In this document: positions 2,751-8,646 of the stretch, in pieces
How the letters are laid out: each line of letters opens with the position of its first letter
Numbering within the stretch: the stretch's first letter is position 1
Assembly (NCBI GenBank): GCA_029858555.1
Contig: JAOUEU010000007.1
Location: 1 to 34,228 of the forward strand
Length of the DNA: 34,228 nt
DNA from: Candidatus Zixiibacteriota bacterium
GTDB lineage: Bacteria; Zixibacteria; MSB-5A5; GN15; FEB-12
Reading direction: 5' to 3'
Made by a program: the position numbers and the translations under genes
Notes under the pieces: generated by a model
Database searches by the model: none
Told to the model about the DNA's origin: nothing
The model's input: the letters and a program-made list of their open reading frames with translations, nothing else

Positions 2751-3368
2751 TCAGCCCAGGACAGACACTTTCTTGATGCCCGCGATGGATGCCTCCCGGG
2801 CGTCATCGTGTCTCTTTTCCGCCAGCTTCCAGCTCTTTTTAAACCACAGAGAGGGACTTTTTATCTCGACGAACCTTTTCGTTGAGCCGTTATCGCTGGT
2901 CACCAGGCTGACCTTCTTGTCACACATGATCGCCGCGTTGATCAGAATGGACGTTATCAGATCCGAGCAGTCGGCGGACCTGGCCAGATCGTCCAGTTCG
3001 TGTTCAAAGGTTTTCAATATCTCCTCGATCGGAAAGGATTGCCGCACGATGACCCTTCCGATGAGCTGCTCAATTTCCGCTCTGTACTCGTCGTTAAGTC
3101 TGCCTGCCAGCATTTTCAAAGCGCTGACAATCAACACCGATTCCTCAACCGTCAGATCATCAACGCTCCCTCGATCCTGGCTGTTCAGGCGATAAGCGCG
3201 ATGCTTACGGTCGAAAAAAACCGGAATGTTGGCCTCAGAGATGACATTGAGATACCGATAGGCCGTCCGTTCCGGTATTCTGCAAGCTGCCTTGATCGTC
3301 TCAAGGGTGGCTGACTGACGATGATTGAGCAGGTTGACCAGCAACAATATTCTATCTAGTTTGCTCAT
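2751..3368 (-). CDS. DeoR/HTH_11-type (WYL-like) transcriptional regulator
   Basis: N-terminal wHTH: LDRILLLVNLLNHRQSATLETIKAACRIPERTAYRYLNVISEANIPVFFDRKHRAYRL. Strong purine-rich RBS region upstream (ggaggagtaaggaggaggtg). Confidence 0.65.
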   Translation of the reverse strand: MSKLDRILLLVNLLNHRQSATLETIKAACRIPERTAYRYLNVISEANIPVFFDRKHRAYRLNSQDRGSVDDLTVEESVLIVSALKMLAGRLNDEYRAEIEQLIGRVIVRQSFPIEEILKTFEHELDDLARSADCSDLITSILINAAIMCDKKVSLVTSDNGSTKRFVEIKSPSLWFKKSWKLAEKRHDDAREASIAGIKKVSVLG

Positions 3369-3414
3369 GCCGCTATTCGGGATTCACCTCCTCCTTACTC
3401 CTCCCCGCGGAGCC

Positions 3415-3645
3415 TTATAGAGTCATGGCCCAGGCGGCGAGCAGAAAATCAATTATGGCTATGCTTTCGCCGGAATCTGCATACGGGGCCTGACTGGTGC
3501 CTTCCGGTGTCGAGTCTGCCGGTGGGTCGGTGCTGCTCCCGTCCGCAAAGGCCGCCGTCGGTGCCAGGATTCCACCTACCAGGCCAAGCAGCAGCAGAGC
3601 CAAGCAGTATCCAATCATGGTAGTTAACAGGGCTCTTTTTGTCAT
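3415..3645 (-). CDS. Small secreted peptide precursor (76 aa)
   Basis: MTKRALLTTMIGYCLALLLLGLVGGILAPTAAFA-DGSSTDPP...: Sec signal peptide with AFA cleavage site; consensus RBS TAGGAGGT-aatt-ATG. Confidence 0.65.
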   Translation of the reverse strand: MTKRALLTTMIGYCLALLLLGLVGGILAPTAAFADGSSTDPPADSTPEGTSQAPYADSGESIAIIDFLLAAWAMTL

Positions 3646-3692
3646 AATTACCTCCTACGCTTCCATGGGTGTTTGTAACGCAGGCGAGTTCA

Positions 3693-3709
3693 AACAAAAA
3701 GGATGCCAT
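3693..3709 (-). promoter_or_regulatory. Candidate sigma-54 (-24/-12) promoter of the secreted peptide gene
   Basis: Minus strand ATGGCATCCTTTTTGTTT: TGGCA -24 element, GG-N10-GT spacing, TTG -12 element (consensus TGGCAC-N5-TTGC). About 48 nt upstream of the ATG. Confidence 0.5.
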
Positions 3710-3792: not shown

Positions 3793-3818
3793 ATTTGCCG
3801 CTCAAGTTACCGGCAAAT
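3793..3818. promoter_or_regulatory. Inverted repeat ATTTGCCG-N10-CGGCAAAT, candidate upstream activating sequence
   Basis: Perfect 8-bp arms read directly from the sequence; centred about 125 bp upstream of the predicted sigma-54 TSS. Confidence 0.5.
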
Positions 3819-3869: not shown

Positions 3870-3888
3870 TTTGCCGAAAAACGGCAAA
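3870..3888. promoter_or_regulatory. Inverted repeat TTTGCCG-N5-CGGCAAA (TGCC-N7-GGCA), candidate upstream activating sequence
   Basis: Perfect 7-bp arms; an extra half-site (GGCAAA) is adjacent at 3891-3896. Confidence 0.5.
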
Positions 3889-3905
3889 GTGGCAAATTGC
3901 AGGGC

Positions 3906-8556: not shown

Positions 8557-8646
8557 CGGAGAGGCAGGGATTCGAACCCTGGATAGAACTATTCGCCCTA
8601 TAACGGATTAGCAATCCGCCGCCTTCAGCCTCTCGGCCACCTCTCC
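8557..8646 (-). tRNA. tRNA-Ser(GCT)
   Basis: GGAGAGGTGGCCGAGAGGCTGAAGGCGGCGGATTGCTAATCCGTTATAGGGCGAATAGTTCTATCCAGGGTTCGAATCCCTGCCTCTCCG: paired acceptor stem, GCT anticodon, long variable arm, GGTTCGAATCC T-arm. No encoded CCA. Confidence 0.95.

Follow-up and report, generated by a model that had tools for sequence, protein, structure and literature searches.

A family of predicted secreted peptides encoded beside kinase-TPR-sigma54 activators in Zixibacteriota: a candidate feedback signal

A short open reading frame lies directly behind the gene for a TPR-containing sigma54-type activator in the window, which is the whole stretch of 34,228 nucleotides that was analysed. An earlier note on this DNA had described the frame as a secreted 76-aa peptide with a hydrophobic C-terminal tail, and had likened it to precursors of signalling or membrane-active peptides. 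This raises the question whether the frame is a gene and, if so, what its product would do beside such a regulator. Here the peptide is called PEP, the activator K and the regulator gene downstream of PEP H (Table 1).

Table 1. Features of the K-PEP-H locus in the window
Feature	Position	Strand	Basis
H, HTH + WYL-like regulator, 205 aa, downstream of PEP	2751..3368	-	
PEP, predicted precursor of a secreted peptide, 76 aa (CDS with its stop codon)	3415..3645	-	
Conserved hydrophobic C-tail of PEP, last 17 residues ESIAIIDFLLAAWAMTL, D at -11	3418..3468	-	statistics over 48 peptides
Predicted signal peptide of PEP, residues 1-34, ends A-F-A	3544..3645	-	sequence inspection
Shine-Dalgarno TAGGAGGT of PEP, strong	3649..3656	-	
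Sigma54-type -24/-12 promoter TGGCATCCTTTTTGTT, 48-63 nt before PEP start	3693..3708	-	
Inverted repeat ATTTGCC-N12-GGCAAAT, candidate K binding site	3793..3818	-	
Repeat TTTGCCACTTTGCCGTTTTTCGGCAAA, candidate K binding site	3870..3896	-	
K, Ser/Thr kinase, winged helix, TPR superhelix, GAF, AAA+ sigma54 domain, Fis-type HTH, 1387 aa	3906..8069	-	

A predicted exported peptide under coding constraint

The frame, for which the earlier note named no strand, is a real ORF of the minus strand; it reads from 3645 to 3415, and the plus-strand frame of 3415-3645 is not open. The sequence of PEP is MTKRALLTTMIGYCLALLLLGLVGGILAPTAAFA followed by DGSSTDPPADSTPEGTSQAPYADSGESIAIIDFLLAAWAMTL, with the predicted cleavage between the two. 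Inspection of the leader showed a basic start, a hydrophobic core and A-F-A, and the cut after AFA, judged by eye, would leave a mature peptide of 42 residues, reproducing the site and the length of about 42 residues proposed before. A-F-A is followed by DGSSTDPP and then by a linker in which S, T, D and P abound; the hydrophobic terminus contains no basic residue. The ribosome binding site is indeed strong. The statement that the peptide has no recognisable family holds for the curated families and structures searched, as no match to PEP was found in Pfam, NCBIfam, PHROGs or PDB sequences.

Homologues were found in a search of 99 related genomes, the best with about 30-42% identity. Their translations show the full layout, each with its own hydrophobic tail: a signal peptide, a D-G-G-x-PP start, an S/T/D/P-rich linker and a hydrophobic C-tail of 13 residues, in precursors mostly 68-90 aa long. 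The hydrophobic core and A-x-A with DG after it are conserved in the family. This profile, built from 45 members and used with a cut-off of E<=1e-4, identified 50 places in 48 of the 133 genomes of the class; a search at the level of the phylum gave the identical 133 genomes. The modular organisation seen in the earlier note (signal, disordered linker, hydrophobic C-terminus) recurs in about 50 diverged homologues. That note had staked its reading on conservation among relatives with the same neighbourhood, and there both the ORF and its C-terminus are conserved.

Codon comparison of close PEP pairs gave dN/dS values of 0.16-0.64, and third codon positions change most in all of these pairs but one. 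Judged by these values, PEP is translated and constrained, that is, under purifying selection.

The K-PEP-H cassette and its promoter

Using K as an anchor, 47 loci across the class were read. A PEP-like short ORF is present 228-366 nt downstream of K in 44 of them (260 nt at the source locus), usually followed by H. The order K-PEP-H is kept across several families; the outer neighbours vary between genomes. All 50 PEP matches at the cut-off adjoin a TPR-sigma54 activator or H. Where no close K orthologue is present (G013, G017, G130, G131 and G132), PEP stands behind a sigma54 activator of K's kind, which in G130 and G131 is split into two genes, and in G048 PEP precedes H at a contig end. 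The three K loci without PEP are those of G094 (L065) and G104 (L089) and the second K copy of G061. G094 and G104, which form one lineage, have kept K and the sigma54 promoter; PEP is absent, H is cut to its HTH, and a hairpin-containing non-coding stretch lies between K and the shortened H. One PEP member, in G072 (L070), is without the hydrophobic tail.

PEP is a lineage-specific family. In a GTDB scan with the K alignment, PEP-bearing loci were labelled Zixiibacteriota/Zixibacteria, unassigned bacteria, GN15 and, in one case, Ignavibacterium, and none was found elsewhere. The Ignavibacterium label is probably wrong, because the peptide of this record (L205), which carries the cassette, is identical to that of G060, a genome of the class. 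At the source locus a papain-like (C1) cysteine peptidase is encoded just past H (1606-2535), which was not found beside the cassette in other genomes, and a tRNA gene (8557-8646, minus strand; Rfam RF00005) is located upstream of K.

Pfam matches of K comprise PF00158 (3e-58), an AAA lid, HTH_8 and TPR_12 (3.1e-8). The AlphaFold model (pLDDT 86.6) places the kinase at residues 1-275, the winged helix at 283-340, a long TPR superhelix at 367-891 and the GAF domain after 900. Conservation reaches 90% or more at the kinase residues K38, D130, K132, N135 and D151; within the protein it is lowest in the TPR array. A Foldseek search with the whole model returned only kinases as top matches and nothing on the TPR part. 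The loop at the GAFTGA position reads NVATGV, with similar xxATGV loops in the orthologues, so that T-G alone is kept; since this loop is altered, contact of K with sigma54 is not assured. We know of no ligand for kinase-TPR-sigma54 proteins. H is predicted to fold as an HTH plus a WYL-like domain: HTH_11 is present in 30 of 34 orthologues, and the fold matches of H are headed by WYL proteins (E 1.5e-6, with a TM of only 0.29), with no WYL match in Pfam.

The motif GGCA-N6-TTG occurs exactly, 35-65 nt upstream of PEP, in 28 of 44 loci, where shuffles predict 0.07; the same search yielded 2 sites on the antisense strand. Within one mismatch it precedes PEP in 39 of 44 loci (1.6 expected), and the sigma54-type element lies at a nearly constant distance from PEP across loci. 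The -12 element often reads TTTG(A/T), not TTGC. Both this element and the altered loop of K may have changed together. Between K and PEP the source locus carries the repeats TTTGCCG-N5-CGGCAAA and ATTTGCC-N12-GGCAAAT. Half-sites resembling theirs occur in several relatives; two repeats of this form together occur only at the K-PEP locus within the assembly. We do not claim a wider regulon sharing the repeat, because 12 sites in the assembly compare with 7 for a reversed-pattern control and two of the 12 are at the locus itself. From the sigma54-type promoter and the repeats upstream of it we infer, as the natural reading, that K would activate PEP and H.

GC-rich hairpins are found between PEP and H at L043, L046, L051, L053, L061, L063 and L066, one of them with a T run after it. 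Such a hairpin could reduce H relative to PEP.

The C-terminal tail and the possible role of PEP

Over 48 PEP peptides the last 13 residues are hydrophobic with almost no K or R, and the residue at position -4 is usually polar or small. An acidic residue (D or E) occupies position -11 in 48%, against 5.5% for the other tail positions (p ~1e-15, in a set with close relatives thinned), and 62% have S, T, P or G at position -14. In 17 of 43, S/T-x-x-D/E leads into hydrophobic residues near the -14/-11 register. Because this pattern is that of a helix N-cap, the tail probably forms a short helix whose C-terminus is free. It is conserved in its hydrophobic pattern and its distance to the C-terminus, not in residue identity.

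In some copies the tail is also the part that changes. The tandem PEP copies of G021 (L054) are 91-94% identical in leader and linker and 58% in the tail (Fisher p=0.0016), and between G013 and G035, too, most of the divergence is in the tail (p=0.001 for tail against leader); both p-values are descriptive, because the pairs were chosen after viewing the data. In the pairs G130/G131 and G099/G084 the tail is conserved as much as the rest or more, so that tail diversification is episodic.

We propose, with a probability of roughly 0.45, that PEP is an exported, RRNPP-like peptide signal that feeds back on K as its TPR-sigma54 receptor. K would bind the repeats just behind its own gene and activate the sigma54 promoter, from which PEP and, probably at a lower level, H would be transcribed. 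Sec would export PEP, with cleavage after A-x-A. The hydrophobic segment at its C-terminus, in the mature peptide or further trimmed, would re-enter the cytoplasm, most simply via an OPT-type transporter, and bind the TPR superhelix of K, changing the activity of K, whatever the sign of this feedback. An autocrine or quorum-type loop would thus be closed, with H relaying the output.

A peptide sensed by the TPRs of its neighbour would fit the pairing of the two genes, the promoter and the C-terminal motif, and also the way in which some duplicates differ specifically in the tail; the low conservation of the TPR array, the presence of OPT transporters and a second system in the same class (see below) are also in favour of this reading. 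To this extent the likeness to signalling peptides drawn in the earlier note agrees with the sequence features of the locus. For its other comparison, with membrane-active peptides, the evidence speaks neither for nor against; a tail of about 13 residues is short for a transmembrane helix. Against the feedback signal stand the altered NVATGV loop, the tail divergence that is not universal, the PEP-less loci of G094 and G104, and the GAF and kinase domains of K, which could be the real sensors. The absence of OppA also counts against it. An OppA-type binding protein (PF00496) is missing from the source genome and from most carriers (32 of the 133 genomes in the class have one), which removes the usual RRNPP import route, and for most carriers we rejected classical Opp import of PEP. 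OPT transporters could take the place of Opp; 120 of 133 genomes, the source genome among them, encode such transporters.

The source genome encodes a second TPR-GAF-sigma54 activator on contig C52 (L022:395-3331, minus strand), directly preceded by a second secreted peptide (MAVKGLKLIAF...SGENPWDADGG..., L022:3383-3787, minus strand). This activator is present in 111 of 133 genomes, and in 29 of the 30 loci examined a peptide of the second type starts 372-424 nt before it; G051 has two in tandem. Most members have a mature start like SGEHPWDADGG. No sigma54 promoter was found at a fixed place before these peptides; they are often preceded, at about 140-175 nt, by an inverted repeat GGCGCA...TGCGCC. 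With two peptide systems paired with TPR-sigma54 activators, the pairing is a repeated theme in the class. That Zixibacteriota possess at least two parallel systems, each with a Sec-exported, fast-evolving peptide sensed by a TPR-sigma54 activator, one of them kinase-fused, is possible, and we hold it tentatively, with the odds somewhat against it.

Alternatively, and as one of two main rivals, K may sense another cue (a GAF ligand, phosphorylation or a protein partner) and switch on PEP as an exported effector without feedback, such as an antimicrobial peptide, a surface peptide or one that acts on membranes. The kinase and GAF domains that K has besides its TPRs, the promoter that places PEP downstream of a sigma54 activator, and a hydrophobic tail that could act on membranes would all suit such an output. 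We nevertheless consider it somewhat less likely than the feedback signal, given that two separate peptide systems are each strictly paired with TPR-sigma54 activators, a tail almost devoid of K and R, unlike most antimicrobial peptides, and the neighbourhood comparison, in which no immunity or export gene conserved beside PEP was found.

The other main rival, less probable still, is that PEP is an internal monitor of export or of the envelope, either because unexported PEP builds up under limiting Sec and its C-tail then reaches K in the cytoplasm and acts on it, or because the tail stalls the ribosome and so controls translation of H. This would account for a cytoplasmic receptor without an Opp importer, and a signal peptide combined with a C-terminal motif near the stop and the next gene is a SecM/MifM-like layout, to which the hairpins between PEP and H at several loci could be added. 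However, the tail is kept in pattern and not in identity, without a residue-specific arrest motif; H is a transcription regulator, neither a Sec nor a YidC part; the hairpin in the PEP-H gap of the source locus (3369-3414) is not significant (z -0.8), and some loci have none; and the conserved D-G-G-x-PP start after the cleavage site suggests a role for mature PEP. That the stretch acts as a leader or regulatory RNA with an incidental ORF is hardly credible. In its favour, G094 and G104 have no recognisable PEP but retain K and the promoter along with a shortened H; the dN/dS values reject it, and the strong Shine-Dalgarno sequence, the length and frame kept across about 50 genomes and the lack of an Rfam match at the PEP stretch speak against it.

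Comparison with known systems

The published signature of RRNPP systems comprises a propeptide of 10-100 aa, a receptor of 250-500 aa with TPRs, and genes adjacent at -60 to 400 bp (PMC10075063). TPR receptors for cytoplasmic peptide signalling are known from Gram-positive Firmicutes and from the mobile elements that these carry (PMC10075063). PEP (76 aa), the TPRs of K and a spacing of 260 nt agree with this signature. For the Sec signal peptide that it also includes, the conserved hydrophobic core and A-x-A point the same way at the level of sequence features. Like Rap-Phr, PlcR-PapR, NprR-NprX, Rgg-SHP, ComR-ComS and AimR-AimP, the pair consists of a small precursor, predicted to be of Sec type, beside, and on the same strand as, a cytoplasmic TPR regulator, and the variable, presumably functional end is at the C-terminus. 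In contrast, K has 1387 aa with kinase, GAF and sigma54 AAA+ domains, and Opp re-import is lacking in most PEP carriers; for these two reasons PEP-K is not an RRNPP member, although by analogy it may work like one. It further differs in its sigma54-type promoter, its occurrence in Zixibacteriota instead of Firmicutes, and a longer, helix-like, hydrophobic tail.

No earlier description of the K-PEP pairing was found in the literature searched, which was mostly without subscription journals and bioRxiv. A conserved K-PEP pair across an uncultured phylum would bring a new lineage and a new class of regulator into peptide communication. If the two parallel systems considered above are real, enhancer-binding proteins would be the basis of an architecture for peptide quorum sensing in diderm bacteria. 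PEP would also supply a defined ligand hypothesis for kinase-TPR-sigma54 proteins. With activator, promoter, peptide and second regulator the cassette is self-contained, so that E. coli can serve to test it and the source organism need not be cultured.

K shares the AAA+ sigma54 interaction domain and the HTH with sigma54 enhancer-binding proteins. PEP-CTERM proteins with PrsR-type sigma54 regulators are exported, as is predicted for PEP, with a C-terminal hydrophobic segment and a sigma54 activator; PEP has no PEP motif, 20-residue membrane helix or basic end, and identity with them was rejected by its short tail, almost without K or R, and by the lack of an NCBIfam match to such models. The secretion-monitor arrest peptides SecM, VemP and MifM have, as PEP has, a signal or membrane segment, a linker and a C-terminal motif before another gene, whereas PEP is without conserved arrest residues and without a Sec or YidC gene downstream. 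In streptococcal ComRS, a regulator, its peptide gene and an output regulator form one feedback circuit, as we propose for K-PEP-H; here, instead of a sigma factor, the output regulator would be H, which is WYL-like and encoded in the same operon, and K belongs to the AAA+ enhancer-binding proteins.
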